Of a stretch of 64,000 bases of DNA, positions 57,257 through 64,000 are shown piece after piece; the first letter of the stretch is position 1; each line of letters opens with the position of its first letter. The stretch spans positions 1 to 64,000 of the forward strand of contig JAIXPW010000133.1 in assembly GCA_027485995.1 (NCBI GenBank), written 5' to 3'. A program made the position numbers and the translations under genes. This stretch comes from Verrucomicrobiaceae bacterium. GTDB taxonomy: Bacteria > Verrucomicrobiota > Verrucomicrobiia > Verrucomicrobiales > Akkermansiaceae. The notes beneath the pieces were generated by a model that was given only the letters and a program-made list of their open reading frames with translations, did not search any database and was not told where the DNA came from.

Positions 57257-57684
57257 GGTGGTCTTGGGTTCTGGGAACTCCGTTGCAGATGGCGATCCAA
57301 TCCGTCCGCCCTAGAAGGTTGGACCATTCCACGAATGCGGCTGAAACCAAACCGAGCGCCTTGCACGGCAATCCACCTCGCGGCGTTGCGGAATGCGCCC
57401 CCGTAGGAGGTATTGGTTATTGGTTATTGGAAATTCGTCATTCGTCATTCGTCATTCGTCCCCTCAATCCACGATCCACGATCCACGATCCACGATCCAC
57501 GATCTGCAATCCCCAATTCCTCCTCATATCCGCCCCGGCAGGTAGGCGCAGAGCATCACCCCCGAAGGCCCCGATATCAACCCACTGACCCCAGAAAATC
57601 GTTGTCAAATCAAGGATCTCAGCCATTATGGAACCGAGCGGGAGTCAGCGGATATCAGACATCTAGATCCTACGAATAAAGAAT
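57257..57684. other. Intergenic region with heptamer repeats
   Basis: 428 bases upstream of the cassette cluster with no supported gene. Its main content is the set of tandem heptamers at 57412-57501. Bases 57602-57684 are unusually A+T rich and contain an inverted pair AGGATCT / AGATCCT; this is the sequence bordering the first cassette boundary. Confidence 0.5.
57412..57501. repeat. Three different tandem 7-bp repeats in a row
   Basis: ATTGGTT twice plus five bases (57412-57430), ATTCGTC four times (57433-57460) and ATCCACG five times (57467-57501). All copies are exact and all three units are 7 bases long. Such side-by-side heptamer runs are short microsatellites, probably caused by replication slippage; no coding or CRISPR-like structure (no spacers). 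Confidence 0.9.
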
Positions 57685-57714
57685 GTTCGCCCAACTAAAA
57701 ACGCCACGCGCCAA

Positions 57715-58128
57715 GTGACCGAGGACGAAGCCATCTCCAATTTCGGCATCCCAAGTTCCCCAGACCATCGCAGAGCGATCATTGAGGCCATTGAGACGGA
57801 GATGATTCGTGAGGAGCAGGAGGAGGGAGATCAGTCGCTACTCAAGTGCCTTTGCATTCAGCTTTTCAGTATAGGCTGCGTTGAGGACAGCCTCGTCGTC
57901 TGGAGGGTGAAGTCTCACTGCTTCGATCTGATGTGTGGCGTTGATGTCCAGTTGCTCTGCGGAGGTGGTCTTGAGGCTACGAGATCATTCTTGACGATTT
58001 CAGACCATTCCACTGCCTGCGATGCACTGCGTTATTTGGATGAGTGCGTGCAGACAGGCGACTTTCAGGACTGGACAGCTGCCAAGACCATCGCAGACTA
58101 TCGCCGCTACTATCAGCTCACAGCATGA
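57715..58128 (+). CDS. Cassette 1 protein (unknown function)
   Basis: 137 residues from the GTG at 57715, 30 bases into cassette 1. Soluble, acidic, helical: an N-terminal helix (RRAIIEAIETEMIREEQEEG), then LLKCLCIQLFSIGCVEDSLV, VWRVKSHCFDLMCGVDVQLL and a final DYRRYYQLTA. The LLKxLCxQLF ... EDSLxxW ... CGxDVQxLCGxGLE pattern looks like a genuine conserved family of small proteins, comparable to immunity-type proteins, but I cannot name it. No ribosome site is clear; expression may rely on read-through from upstream. Confidence 0.65.
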   Translation: MTEDEAISNFGIPSSPDHRRAIIEAIETEMIREEQEEGDQSLLKCLCIQLFSIGCVEDSLVVWRVKSHCFDLMCGVDVQLLCGGGLEATRSFLTISDHSTACDALRYLDECVQTGDFQDWTAAKTIADYRRYYQLTA

Positions 58129-58159
58129 CTGGACCTCAGCAAACCGCCGGCAACCAAAG

Positions 58160-58286
58160 GGCGAACAAGGCGCGGCTGGACAACCGCTGGGGCTGCTCTG
58201 TCGGCCGTGCTTTCCGTAACTTTAACACGCCGTCCCGTTTCGACACTCACCCCCGCCCCAGCGGTGCCAGCGCTTAATCGTTGGCA
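58160..58286 (+). other. attC site 1
   Basis: 127 bases from R'' GGCGAAC (58160-58166) to R' GTTGGCA (58280-58286). The inner arms CCGCTGGGGC (58184-58193) and GCCCCAGCGG (58255-58264) pair perfectly over ten bases, and the outer arms (GGCTGGACAA against TGCCAGC) pair with unpaired extra bases, which is the strand-marking feature of attC hairpins. The right end, GCTTAATCGTTGGC, resembles common environmental attC ends. This is the best site of the four. Confidence 0.78.
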
Positions 58287-58292
58287 TATCAG

Positions 58293-58661
58293 ATGAAATT
58301 TCGTTATACTCTCTTCCTCGTGTTTGTCGCGATCTTGGCGGTATTGACGATGTTTGTCCTGCCGAACGGCTACGACGTCGAAAGAGCTGGTAAAGCCCGG
58401 GATCAAGTGGAAGCCATATTGGTCAAATCAGGTTGCTTGGTCAATTTGGGCGATTCAAATGGAACGAAAGAAGGGATTGAAGTGATGATGACGGAAGTCA
58501 GGGGAAAAGTTGTAGTGGGCATCGGCAATCCCAAACCCGATGAAAAGACCATCTTGAACATCATCTACAACCACCGCCACGAGATTGACGGGGAGACGCT
58601 TGGCCTCATATTCAAGAATGAACAGAACGTATTAACCTCCAGAGTCTGGGTTTCCGACTGA
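58293..58661 (+). CDS. Cassette 2 protein, signal-anchored (unknown function)
   Basis: 122 residues from the ATG at 58293, seven bases after the attC 1 right box, a typical cassette position; a TTG four codons earlier is less likely. One N-terminal membrane helix (YTLFLVFVAILAVLTMFVLP) anchors a periplasmic domain of about 95 residues with alternating strands and helices (EVRGKVVVGIGNPKPDEKTI). I do not recognise the family. It is much lower in GC than the surrounding chromosome, consistent with foreign origin. Confidence 0.65.
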   Translation: MKFRYTLFLVFVAILAVLTMFVLPNGYDVERAGKARDQVEAILVKSGCLVNLGDSNGTKEGIEVMMTEVRGKVVVGIGNPKPDEKTILNIIYNHRHEIDGETLGLIFKNEQNVLTSRVWVSD

Positions 58662-58719
58662 GTTGGCATCAATCTCAAAAGAATCCACTTTGACGCAATA
58701 AGCGAGACTCAAGCAACAG

Positions 58720-58817
58720 GCCGAACCAGTCATGTCGCACCAACCGACCATAAATTTTTTAACTTCATTTTCAACATCCTCTCAGCCAGGCCGGTGGGCG
58801 CAATTCCGACATTGAGC
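58720..58817 (+). other. attC-like site 2 (altered right box)
   Basis: 98 bases from R'' GCCGAAC (58720-58726) to R' ATTGAGC (58811-58817). Arms CGCACCAACCGACC (58736-58749) and GGCCGGTGGGCG (58789-58800) pair with a bulge. The right box starts with A instead of the conserved G at the cleavage position, so the site may be inactive. Loop sequence is A+T rich (ATTTTTTAAC). Confidence 0.6.
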
Positions 58818-58868
58818 CAGGCAAAACGAGACACCGCCGGGAATGCAACCAAGAGAGGAACCCATTCA

Positions 58869-59054
58869 TTGAGGACCGTTTTCCGAGAGATCATTCACTG
58901 GACATTGGCTGGCGTCGCTTTTGTCGCGATGGTCAAGATTCCCACGATGACGGAGGTCTGGTGGCATTCAATTCCAGCTCTGATTGGATTCGTCGTGCTG
59001 TTTCTGGCGCTTGTTCGGCTAGTTGGGCGTTTCACCGAAAAAGACGGAGAATGA
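58869..59054 (+). CDS. Cassette 3 protein, small two-helix membrane protein
   Basis: 61 residues from the TTG at 58869, which has a good ribosome site (GAGAGGA); in-frame starts at 58812 (TTG) and 58794 (GTG) would begin inside the attC hairpin and are less likely. Two membrane helices (IIHWTLAGVAFVAMV and IPALIGFVVLFLALVRLV) joined by a short polar loop, with a charged end. Size and topology resemble holin- or immunity-like small membrane proteins, but no family is recognised. Confidence 0.5.
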   Translation: MRTVFREIIHWTLAGVAFVAMVKIPTMTEVWWHSIPALIGFVVLFLALVRLVGRFTEKDGE

Positions 59055-59096
59055 TTCCATTCCTCAAGCCAAGGATCCAAACAGGCGCAGCGATCC

Positions 59097-59189
59097 CCCC
59101 AACAAGCCATCGCTTGATGACGACCCTTCATCCGCTCCTCAATCCCATTTCAGATGCATCTTCCTGGTGGGGATGTCGTCATGTTTGAT
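59097..59189 (+). other. attC-like site 3
   Basis: 93 bases from R'' CCCCAAC (59097-59103, followed by AAG as in many attC sites) to R' GTTTGAT (59183-59189). Inner arms ATGACGAC (59117-59124) and GTCGTCAT (59175-59182) pair perfectly; outer pairing is weak. The start codon of the next gene overlaps the right end. Confidence 0.5.
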
Positions 59190-59612
59190 GTGGCTCCAGA
59201 AATGAAGATTTTCCTCCAGCGCTCAAACAGCGAACCCGAGTCACTGGGTCAGGTGGCGATGGATGACGCACTTGAACTTTTCCGGCAGCATGACTGGCAT
59301 TCGGAGATCTTGTTGGAAGAGCGCTTGAGATCAGAAGGCTCCCATTGCTGCTCGCCGTGCATGGAGTGGGTCTCGGATAGTGGTTCCGCGCTGACCCTGA
59401 TACCCACCGGCAAAGGGGTGAGCATCGTTTATCGTAGCGGCAGGAAGCACCGATTTCTTGGCGTGATTCCCACACCCGCAGATGCGATCCTTTCGGTTTC
59501 GGAGGTTCCGGAACACGCGTTACGTGAGATTCTGTTGAGCCATTACCAAGGTGACAGAGGGCTTGAACGTCTGATCCTGGAGGCTGGAGTGCCCACACCG
59601 CTGTTCAGCTAA
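59181..59612 (+). CDS. Cassette 4 protein (unknown function)
   Basis: 143 residues from the ATG at 59181, with GGTGGGGA upstream; an ATG at 59154 would start inside attC 3. Soluble, mixed alpha/beta: VAMDDALELFRQHDWHSEIL, a CCSPCMEW cysteine cluster that might bind metal, a beta pair (ALTLIPTGKGVSIVYRSGRK) and a C-terminal helix (HALREILLSHYQGDRGLERL). Its TAA stop lies inside the R'' box of the following attC, an arrangement usual for integron cassettes. Family not recognised. Confidence 0.65.
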   Translation: MFDVAPEMKIFLQRSNSEPESLGQVAMDDALELFRQHDWHSEILLEERLRSEGSHCCSPCMEWVSDSGSALTLIPTGKGVSIVYRSGRKHRFLGVIPTPADAILSVSEVPEHALREILLSHYQGDRGLERLILEAGVPTPLFS

Positions 59613-59753
59613 CAAGTCACCTCATGACGACCGGCCGCCCATTTTCGATGATCCCTCGTGATGACACACCCTCCCGTGATCGACATGCGGCCCCGCAGAT
59701 CGGATTGCTTGCTCGTTTACGGGATATGCCGTCGAGCACCTGAAAGGTTGGCC
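59607..59753 (+). other. attC-like site 4
   Basis: 147 bases from R'' AGCTAAC (59607-59613, overlapping the stop codon) to R' GTTGGCC (59747-59753). Inner arms GGCCGCCCATTTTCGAT (59633-59649) and ATCGACATGCGGCC (59679-59692) pair with bulged bases; AAC-nnnn-CA spacing is kept on both sides. It ends nine bases before the stop of the convergent EpsI-like gene, marking the edge of the cluster. Confidence 0.55.
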
Positions 59754-59762
59754 GGTAAAGGT

Positions 59763-60347
59763 TTACCGGAACCCAAGTGCGGGCAGCAGAATCTGGCGCA
59801 CGCGGTCCCAATCGACCGATTCGCCGGGCAGGCTGCGCAAGGTCACGAGCACGGGCTCATCTCCGCTACGCCCCAAGGTGATCCGGCGCAGGCTGGTGGC
59901 GAGCCAGTAGTCCATGGGCGAGGTGAATTGCTTGGCGCCGTTGTCGAAAAACCAGAGGGCTTCGGACCTTTCATCGCCTTTGGCCAGGGAGACCCGGGTG
60001 GCCTCGCCGGATGATAGCTTGACCATGGTCTTGGATTGGATTTTCCAGCCGGCGCCGGAAAAGCAGTAGGCAGGGTCGTGCACGGCGTGGCGGTTGCCGG
60101 TGCCGTCGACGACGGAAAGGACGAGGTGTCCGCCACCGCGCATGGCGATGAGGAACTGGGTGCTTTCCGCCTTGCCGAGGAAGGCGCGGTCCTCGGCGGA
60201 GAGGTCGAGCGGGCGCGCTTGGAAATCCGGACTGGACCCGGGCAACGAGGCGAGCCGGTCGTGCGCGGACTTGAGCGGGATCATCGGCCATCCCAGGGCG
60301 ATTCCCACGGTGAGAGCGAGTATGATCCAGAGGATGCGTTGTTTCAT
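59763..60347 (-). CDS. EpsI-like exosortase-associated protein
   Basis: 194 residues from the ATG at 60347, which overlaps the preceding stop by four bases; longer reading frames upstream are antisense noise. One N-terminal membrane segment (ILWIILALTVGIALGWPM), then the EpsI/DUF3485-type core with HAVHDPAYCFSGAGWK: C95 with H87, H90 and W101 is the expected conserved cluster. EpsI proteins accompany exosortases and are required for their polysaccharide or protein export function; a peptidase-like role has been suggested. Last gene of the exosortase operon. Confidence 0.8.
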   Translation of the reverse strand: MKQRILWIILALTVGIALGWPMIPLKSAHDRLASLPGSSPDFQARPLDLSAEDRAFLGKAESTQFLIAMRGGGHLVLSVVDGTGNRHAVHDPAYCFSGAGWKIQSKTMVKLSSGEATRVSLAKGDERSEALWFFDNGAKQFTSPMDYWLATSLRRITLGRSGDEPVLVTLRSLPGESVDWDRVRQILLPALGFR

Positions 60348-60841
60348 GATTTCGGGACGGAGGTGGAGGATGAAGGCTTCAGCTGTGGCACGACGATCAG
60401 CAAGGCCACGAGTGCGGCGAAAACGGGTCGTTCCCAGCCTGCGAGTCCGCCGGATTTCAGGTGGCTGAGAAACCACCCGCTGGCAGGCAGCCAGGCGGCG
60501 GCGGCCATGGTCGTGACGATCCCGGAGAGCCTCAGACCGGAAAGCCCGGCAAGCGCGGTGGCGAGCGCGAGGTGCAGGATCAAGTTCACCCCGCCCATGG
60601 AGCCCGCCGCACAGAGGAACAGGGAAAGCCCGATCCAGCCGAGGCCGGGGGCGGCGCGTTGCTTGAAAAAGACGATCGCCAGCGGGACCAGCCAGATGAG
60701 GAAGGCGAGTGGAGCGCCGCGTGAGTAGAGGTCGGTCCGCCACCCTTCGATCAGGGAAGGAACCGCCTGCCAGGCTGCGAGGGCCGAGGTTGCCAGTGGC
60801 AAGGCGATGGCGGAGAAGCTGGAGGGTGGCGAAGGTTTCAT
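60344..60841 (-). CDS. Exosortase-operon membrane protein
   Basis: 165 residues, about five membrane helices (IALPLATSALAAWQAV, LAFLIWLVPLAIVFF, WIGLSLFLCAAGSMGG, LILHLALATALAGL, VFAALVALLIVVPQL). No known family. It overlaps the exosortase stop and the EpsI start by four bases each, so it is made together with them and probably works in the same complex. Confidence 0.7.
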   Translation of the reverse strand: MKPSPPSSFSAIALPLATSALAAWQAVPSLIEGWRTDLYSRGAPLAFLIWLVPLAIVFFKQRAAPGLGWIGLSLFLCAAGSMGGVNLILHLALATALAGLSGLRLSGIVTTMAAAAWLPASGWFLSHLKSGGLAGWERPVFAALVALLIVVPQLKPSSSTSVPKS

Positions 60842-61662
60842 GAGGAGCGGACGATTTTCGACGAGACCACGGGTGCGGGAGCGAGCAGGATCGAGAGGCC
60901 CTTGGTCATGGCGAGGACCGCGCCGAGCACGGCCAGACCGGTCAGTCCGTGAATCGCACCGCCGGCGGTCTGGGTGTCGAACGAAAGCGCGATCCCCGAA
61001 AGGATCAGGATCCGCAGCAGATTGGCGATCCAGACGATCCCCGGAAGCAGGCAGAGCAGCAGGATGAAACGCCGGGTCGGGCGGATTTCATGAGCACCGA
61101 GTGCGATCCCGGCCAGCAGGGTGAGTTGCAGGAGATTCCACCCGGCGCAGGCGGCCTCGATTTCGATTGGCACGCCCATCACGTTCAGATGGGTGCCCTC
61201 GCGGGTCGCCGGGATTTCCACCAGCCGGAAAAACATCTCCGCGACGGCGGCGGAGGAAAGCCGGAACGCCCAGCCGATGGACTGCCACTCGATGACCAGC
61301 CATGGAAAGGAAAGCAGCGCCAACAAGGCCAGACGTCCGCGCCGCGGTTGCGGGGCGAACCCAAAAAAGGCCCAGAGGAACGAGAGCAAGGTCCAGCCGA
61401 GCGCGAGCACGGTGATGTTCCCGATCAACCAGCCGACCGCAAAAACCGCCGCCCCGGCGATGGCGAGAAGTTGTGCCTTCTTCGGAACAGGATCAGTCGC
61501 CGGCACCCAGGGCCGACCCAGCAGAAATGCGAGCGGCAGGCCGAAGGCGAGCGGCAGCGAATCCTCCGGCGCTGCCAGCCATTGACGATCGCGCAGCCAG
61601 ATCGCCACCGCCGCGAGCAGCAGTCCGATGCCACTGATCCACAACTGTCCCTTTCGTGTCAT
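60838..61662 (-). CDS. xrt: Exosortase
   Basis: 274 residues and about eight membrane helices. The catalytic triad of the exosortase/archaeosortase family is complete: C172 in IEAACAGWN, R217 in WIANLLRILIL and H238 in GGAIHGLTG. These membrane transpeptidases cut at the PEP-CTERM sorting signal and attach the protein to the surface. The substrate type is visible nearby (APEPS ... RRRR tail at 63670). The ATG overlaps the stop of the TPR gene by four bases. It is shorter than many exosortases and lacks a fused EpsI domain, which is a separate gene here. Confidence 0.9.
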   Translation of the reverse strand: MTRKGQLWISGIGLLLAAVAIWLRDRQWLAAPEDSLPLAFGLPLAFLLGRPWVPATDPVPKKAQLLAIAGAAVFAVGWLIGNITVLALGWTLLSFLWAFFGFAPQPRRGRLALLALLSFPWLVIEWQSIGWAFRLSSAAVAEMFFRLVEIPATREGTHLNVMGVPIEIEAACAGWNLLQLTLLAGIALGAHEIRPTRRFILLLCLLPGIVWIANLLRILILSGIALSFDTQTAGGAIHGLTGLAVLGAVLAMTKGLSILLAPAPVVSSKIVRSS

Positions 61663-63669: not shown

Positions 63670-64000
63670 TCAGATCCTGCGGCGGCGTGAAAATCCGAAG
63701 AATGCCATTCCGCCCAGCAGCGCGCCGACCGCCAGGGACGGTTCCGGAGCTCCGAGGCCGGCGACGTTCGCCTTGCCGATCTCGACGGCGAACACCAGGT
63801 CGTTGTAATCCCGGTCACCGCCGCCCTTGATGTCCTCGAAGCCGATGACGAGGTAAGCCGAGCCATTCTCGGCAAGGCTGACTGCGTGAACGAGGCCGTC
63901 CATGTTCAGGCTGGTGGTCGTTGAGAAGAAGTCCTTGCCGCCGGTCGCTCCGTTGGCGATGAGGAAGAAATCGAGCGCGGTTCCGGCCTTGAAGGTGCCG
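63670..64000 (-). CDS. PEP-CTERM/DUF4114 protein, C-terminal part
   Basis: The 110 codons visible are the 3' end; the 5' end is beyond the window. A DUF4114-type motif (GFEDIKGGGDRDYNDLVFAV) has a likely calcium site. The end is a classic PEP-CTERM sorting signal: APEPS, a hydrophobic helix (LAVGALLGGMAFFGF) and the basic tail SRRRRI. This is the probable substrate of the exosortase encoded two genes downstream, from which it is separated only by the TPR gene (25-base gap). Confidence 0.88.
   Translation of the reverse strand, partial: GTFKAGTALDFFLIANGATGGKDFFSTTTSLNMDGLVHAVSLAENGSAYLVIGFEDIKGGGDRDYNDLVFAVEIGKANVAGLGAPEPSLAVGALLGGMAFFGFSRRRRI

Follow-up and report, generated by a model that had tools for sequence, protein, structure and literature searches.

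A run of four gene cassettes at positions 57685-59761 of the window, by which we mean the whole stretch of 64,000 nucleotides analysed here, is probably one arm of a distributed integron, in which one or more integrases act in trans on many dispersed attI sites. The cassettes all lie on the + strand, and no intI gene is found close by. That they form an integron cassette cluster of the kind known as CALIN is practically certain, and there is strong support for the array being headed by an attI site that is one of many in this genome. The window lies on the 72.9-kb contig C118 of a 5.7-Mb draft genome, which comprises 269 contigs and is 84% complete.

Cassettes, attC sites and borders of the cluster

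The features of the cluster are as follows, with all coordinates given in the window and R2 denoting the covariance model described below.

57515..57685, + strand: attI-type leader with a 121-bp core at 57571-57691, similarity being weaker from about 57515; crossover between G57685 and T57686 (R3 and HMM matches)
57686..58280, + strand: cassette 1, whose R' (GTTCGCCC, 57685) is the exact complement of its own R'' (GGGCGAAC, 58159)
57715..58128, + strand: gene 1, 137 aa, GTG start, predicted all-alpha fold
58159..58287, + strand: attC site 1, intact, 52.1 bits, E 2.2e-10 (R2), 88% identical to an attC on contig C196
58281..58811, + strand: cassette 2, from the crossover point of site 1 to that of site 2
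58293..58661, + strand: gene 2, 122 aa, N-terminal hydrophobic segment
58719..58818, + strand: attC site 2, partly decayed, 26.6 bits, E 2.2e-4 (R2), 77% identical to an attC on contig C131
58812..59190, + strand: cassette 3, from the crossover point of site 2 to that of site 3
58869..59054, + strand: gene 3, about 61 aa, TTG start (uncertain), small protein with hydrophobic segments
59096..59197 (start approximate), + strand: attC site 3, decayed, R' core GTG, below the R2 threshold
59191 to about 59761, + strand: cassette 4 unit (gene and site)
59202..59612, + strand: gene 4, about 136 aa
59606 to about 59726, + strand: attC site 4, R'' CAGCTAACAAG intact, R' decayed, followed by a remnant of about 35 bp up to the border
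59761..59763, + strand: right border, where the cluster meets the stop codon of a DUF3485 gene (minus strand, exosortase cluster); the relative G011 has its border at the same place

The attC sites were searched with a covariance model, R2, built from 40 hand-picked attC sites of integrase-bearing arrays in this genome and its relatives, without any sequence from the window, and with the R, L and inner stems written by hand on the alignment. In a check of this structure, 75% of the cells were paired, as against 60% in shuffled and 37-41% in slid versions, with 164 double changes against 76. It should be noted that R2 is not the IntegronFinder model. A previous version, R1, contained sequence only and was dropped for lack of pairs, RNAalifold having returned none on the raw MAFFT alignment of attC sites. 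Searching for strict RYYYAAC/GTTRRRY pairs missed the sites of the window as well as all sites of the array on contig C218, while structure-only scanning for arms was too noisy, with background scores of at least 50 throughout coding DNA. An Rfam scan gave nothing at gathering score and chance-level matches only.

An attC covariance search had been suggested in the initial annotation, which described an integrase-less CALIN in a Verrucomicrobiota genome with four small genes in one orientation, each followed by an attC-type segment. Over the whole window, sites 1 and 2 are the top two matches of R2, the next best being noise at E 1.6, and four open reading frames are indeed found on the + strand. 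Sites 3 and 4 remain under the threshold (7.9 and 8.9 bits), and half of the sites are recognisable by nucleotide similarity only: site 3 is 80% identical to an intact attC of contig C25 over 66 nt (L097) and 76% to one of G050 over 94 nt (L038), and site 4 is 82% identical to one of G014 over 49 nt (L039) and similar to those in L034, L100 and L088. Nucleotide alignment thus shows all four segments to be homologous to attC sites of this genome or its relatives. The GTT-like R' boxes described previously are intact at site 1 only; the core has changed from GTT to ATT in site 2 and to GTG in site 3, and site 4 has no clear core. With three of the four R' cores mutated, shuffling of this array has probably ceased beyond cassette 1.

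The two ends of a real cassette come together in its circular form, and the bases at its start (R') therefore pair with those at its end (R''). In 86 cassettes whose cores are intact, R' and R'' of the same cassette match in 3.76 of 5 outer bases, compared to 2.53 (sd 0.09) in 2000 shuffles and to only 2.46 for R' and R'' of one site. In cassette 1 the match is 5/5 for the outer bases and 8/8 for the boxes, and the ends of cassettes 2 to 4 can be matched, by eye, only if mismatches or small indels are allowed, as decay would predict. Could these segments nevertheless be ordinary intergenic hairpins or terminators that resemble attC by chance? Folding of the sites, another suggestion of the initial annotation, was carried out and gave unexceptional energies for single-stranded DNA (z -1.1 for site 1), and hairpin energy alone would be no proof in any case. 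This, together with the mere 8-9 bits of sites 3 and 4, is what such a reading can rely on. It is refuted by the E values of 2e-10 and 2e-4 for sites 1 and 2, the nucleotide homology of all four segments to attC, the perfect R'/R'' match of cassette 1 and the turnover of cassettes at the same border in G011, and we consider that it can practically be dismissed. Terminator-like matches were, moreover, no more frequent than in shuffled sequence.

The demonstrated cassette units carry genes whose products we could not assign. None of the proteins matched a family in Pfam (above cut-off), NCBIfam, PADLOC or PHROGs, in agreement with the initial description of all four as unrecognised, and structure models of good confidence for genes 1 and 4 had no significant fold match in the PDB (E above 0.3). 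For these two reasons no function is claimed, and the earlier hint at defence genes is left without support. Homologs of gene 1 occur in 6 of the 196 genomes searched, in Verrucomicrobiota, with 41-59% identity for those aligned. The closest, in G011, lies directly upstream of an attC (53.8 bits), whereas the more distant ones are ordinary chromosomal genes where the model finds no attC. Two of these chromosomal homologs (L077 and L078, in G074 and G083) are closely followed downstream by a conserved neighbouring gene, a possible clue to what the family does. For gene 2 no homolog was found in the 196 genomes. Those of gene 4 share 22-53% identity, and one of them (L083, G027) lies inside an attC array.

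The left edge of the cluster, 57685, is exactly the crossover G, and the right edge lies at about 59761 rather than 59753, as the homologous flank in G011 also starts at TTACCGGAACCC. The two flanks share 94% identity over 1.2 kb, a match that breaks off precisely at the border, which reads GG/TTTACCGGAACCC in our sequence and ACG/TTACCGGAACCC in G011 (slash at the border) and coincides with the DUF3485 stop codon. Past this point G011 carries another array, with three attC sites, which demonstrates that cassettes have turned over at the orthologous position. At the border of four orthologs that are more distant, no attC is present. The same genes in the same order elsewhere, which would have spoken against cassettes, were not found. 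Leftwards, the similarity to G011 is lost at window position 57410, and the G011 contig with the left flank carries another leader-headed array in inverted orientation, from which we conclude that the locus was rearranged between the two genomes. Possibly G011 has two divergent attI-headed arrays here; its contigs end between them. In the G011 loci L255 (C136) and L229 (C62), the two flanks of the window cluster each border on a cassette array, and these arrays are oppositely oriented.

A complete integron would require intI, attI and cassettes together, which this locus, being without intI, does not offer. The requirements for a CALIN are met: at least two attC sites found by a covariance model (two over threshold, with the model from local sites), no neighbouring integron integrase, R'/R'' complementarity, and a cassette content that varies between close relatives at one site.

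Elsewhere in the window, an exosortase gene (PF09721) at 60838-61662 adjoins the DUF3485 gene (59763-60347, minus strand), and a small protein with a PEP-CTERM-like tail is encoded at the end (63670-63903, minus strand). A near-perfect inverted repeat of about 160 bp end to end, AGTGAAACGCCACACCGCTTT ... AAAGCGGTGTGGCGTTTCACT, lies at 1291-1450.

The leader at the head of the array

The initial annotation had read the region as a cassette cluster, which stands but is incomplete, as it leaves out the attI-type site that heads the array and recurs throughout the genome. Its repeat nature was found by comparing the sequence left of cassette 1 with that of other clusters. Over the 121-bp core, 20 copies from this genome align with one single-base gap; the leader includes the blocks GTTGTCAAATCAAGGA and GATATCA. 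The information content is 1.2-1.6 bits over most of the core and at most 0.2 past the junction; similarity fades about 180 bp before the crossover and ends within a few bases past G/TT (slash at the crossover). A fixed G/TT junction, with conservation only up to that point, is what is expected of an attI. The bases right of the leader, furthermore, match R'' of the first cassette in 3-5 of 5 positions in 12/12 arrays tested.

In total, about 25 copies of the leader are observed in the genome, dispersed over separate contigs. A same-strand attC follows within about 1.6 kb in 15 of the roughly 20 testable copies (counted by hand), where we estimate that about 1 per cent would be expected after random positions. 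In another five copies the contig ends within about 0.8 kb. The remaining five have enough sequence and yet no attC within about 1.6 kb, which counts against the distributed integron, two of them having an attC at 2.1-2.4 kb. A search of the whole genome with R2, as had been suggested along with one for integrases, yielded about 110 attC sites on some 35-40 contigs, many of the sites being in clusters without intI. Low-complexity tandem stretches (ATTCGTC and ATCCACG units) lie directly upstream of the leader, at 57411-57520, and similar stretches are present upstream of many of its copies in the genome.

The leader is not confined to this genome, being present in 30 of 99 genomes searched and 6 of 20 genera. 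The named records that carry it are Akkermansiaceae and other Verrucomicrobiota MAGs, which fits the phylum given in the initial annotation. Of 18 leaders fetched from G011, G017, G031, G034 and G023, 16 head an attC array on the same strand; one of the other two is at a contig end and one has no attC. Three relatives, G031, G025 and G009, show the classical divergent arrangement, with leader and intI 0.5-0.8 kb apart; in G055 the leader comes after intI, runs in the same direction and has three attC sites behind it. An array downstream of such an intI-linked leader was seen only in G055 and in G031, where it comprises four attC sites. In all four genomes the leader ends in TACGAATAAAnACTG/TT, as does the copy in the window. 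It is this position between intI and array in the relatives that identifies the leader as an attI site, and its sequence shows the window copy to be, at that level, identical in kind to their intI-adjacent attI. Adjacency to intI at the head of the array is accordingly met for leaders of relatives and unmet for the copy in the window.

These observations also bear on whether we are dealing with an ordinary CALIN, produced by off-target insertion at an attG site by an integrase encoded elsewhere, with the leader being merely an unrelated intergenic repeat that offered the site. Insertion into attG has been documented in E. coli (cited in PMC12444791), and the leader copies do lie among low-complexity intergenic repeats. 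An accidental target would, however, not be expected to be conserved over about 120 bp right up to the crossover, nor to be the sequence that separates intI from its array in relatives. The left border is a copy of an attI and not the non-classical site, unlike attI, that defines attG, and we regard this origin as quite unlikely.

Integrases and the origin of the dispersed sites

If the cluster is an arm of a distributed integron, an integrase has to be encoded elsewhere. Contig C118 has no match to the integron integrase family TIGR02249, and tblastn found no intI in the window. Among the relatives, 51 of 99 have an integron integrase above the family cut-off. In the genome itself, the search recovered one complete intI, on contig C218, and two fragments, G000:C263:4-471 and G000:C119:4-558, which represent the 3' part of the leader-type intI (74-81% identity) and are both located at the start of their contigs. 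The fragments are identical to each other over 124 aa, the C119 copy being broken by a short insert after residue 127, and share no more than about 40% identity with the integrase of C218. Their resemblance to the leader-linked intI shows that the cognate type of integrase is present here, although broken by the assembly. An intact gene of this type is thus inferred, as only the 3' fragments at contig ends have been seen. That the one intact integrase of the genome, on C218, is of another type and has another attI counts against the distributed integron.

The integron on C218 (L023 14832-20000 and L024 1-514) has its complete intI codirectional with the cassettes, and its attI has just the core AATAAAACTG/TTCGCC in common with the leader type. 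The single-contig relative G003 has more than 100 attC matches at 2.19-2.25 Mb of its contig C1, most of those listed being in one large array; the leader model has no match in this genome.

Alternatively, the clusters could be former complete integrons that lost their intI; whole integrons would have been copied by segmental duplication, and the leaders would be the attI sites that remained. That CALINs arise when intI is lost is a standard proposal (PMC8618304), and fragmentary intI genes are common in these genomes. Traces of intI would then be expected upstream of the leaders, but the 1.5 kb next to 24 copies yielded no remnant. The similarity between copies ends about 180 bp before the crossover, and the spacer between intI and attI of the relatives is missing upstream of them, bar one match of 25 nt. 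For these reasons, duplication of whole integrons seems unlikely to us.

For the distributed integron, we envisage the following. The leader at 57515-57685 would have served as attI and taken up the four cassettes successively, through attC x attI recombination by IntI between G57685 and T57686, with the integrase being encoded elsewhere in the genome and working in trans. The approximately 25 attI copies would act likewise, most of them heading their own cassette array. Action of an integrase in trans on dispersed attI sites is likely, though inferred, and its present-day activity has not been shown. Expression of the first cassette from the leader is an inference as well, and so is the manner in which attI was copied: a non-exhaustive look for a transposase, terminal repeats or a target duplication identified none.

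Relation to known integron systems

An integron is usually pictured with a single attI next to its integrase, so that expression is thought to reach no further than the first few cassettes. If the distributed integron is real, about 25 dispersed attI sites would provide many first positions for cassettes. We lean, with some reserve, towards a genome in which attI was multiplied to dozens of docking sites, which one or two integrases fill in trans; this would allow simultaneous expression of many first-position cassettes at different places on the chromosome. Part of the abundant CALINs would then be built on dedicated docking sites and not be debris, adding another origin to the three that have been described, namely off-target insertion, loss of intI and rearrangement (PMC9024848, PMC8618304, PMC3607928). 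The attI site is typically single and close to the integrase (PMC9024848), with one per integron (PMC3607928), and outside class 1 integrons it is said to be poorly described (PMC9024848). Here the leader provides a sequence handle on attI, as a family of copies across the genomes and genera mentioned above. In the literature on multiple, duplicated, additional or orphan attI sites, we came across no report of many dispersed copies per genome; subscription papers are largely uncovered, and priority is not claimed. In Xanthomonas, CALINs occur at up to seven loci, and the passages of that study considered here do not report a shared attI (PMC12444791).

Like the CALINs of IntegronFinder 2.0 (PMC9024848), the cluster consists of attC-bounded cassettes in one orientation without a neighbouring intI. 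It differs from them in its recognisable attI-type head, repeated at many other clusters of the genome, and in that half of its attC sites are too decayed for the model. The attG insertions (Loot et al. 2024, as cited in PMC12444791) likewise place cassettes at chromosomal sites away from intI. Sites of the attG type are described as neither attC nor attI, whereas the leader is long, conserved and of the kind of a genuine attI. The Delta-attI gene cassettes of class 1 and 2 integrons (PMC12901181) also have attI sequence away from intI, but there a piece of attI lies within a cassette inside one integron, while here attI sites head separate chromosomal arrays. The layout of Treponema, with intI codirectional with the cassettes (PMC3607928), is matched by the C218 integron and by G055, and not by the window cluster, which is entirely without intI. 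The sedentary chromosomal integron of Vibrio and Xanthomonas, with a single attI next to intI (PMC9024848, PMC12444791), has attI, G/TT crossover, attC cassettes and an IntI of family TIGR02249 in common with the present system, and the relatives G031 and G025 have this very layout with the same attI. In the genome studied here, by contrast, that attI stands apart from intI, in about 25 copies.
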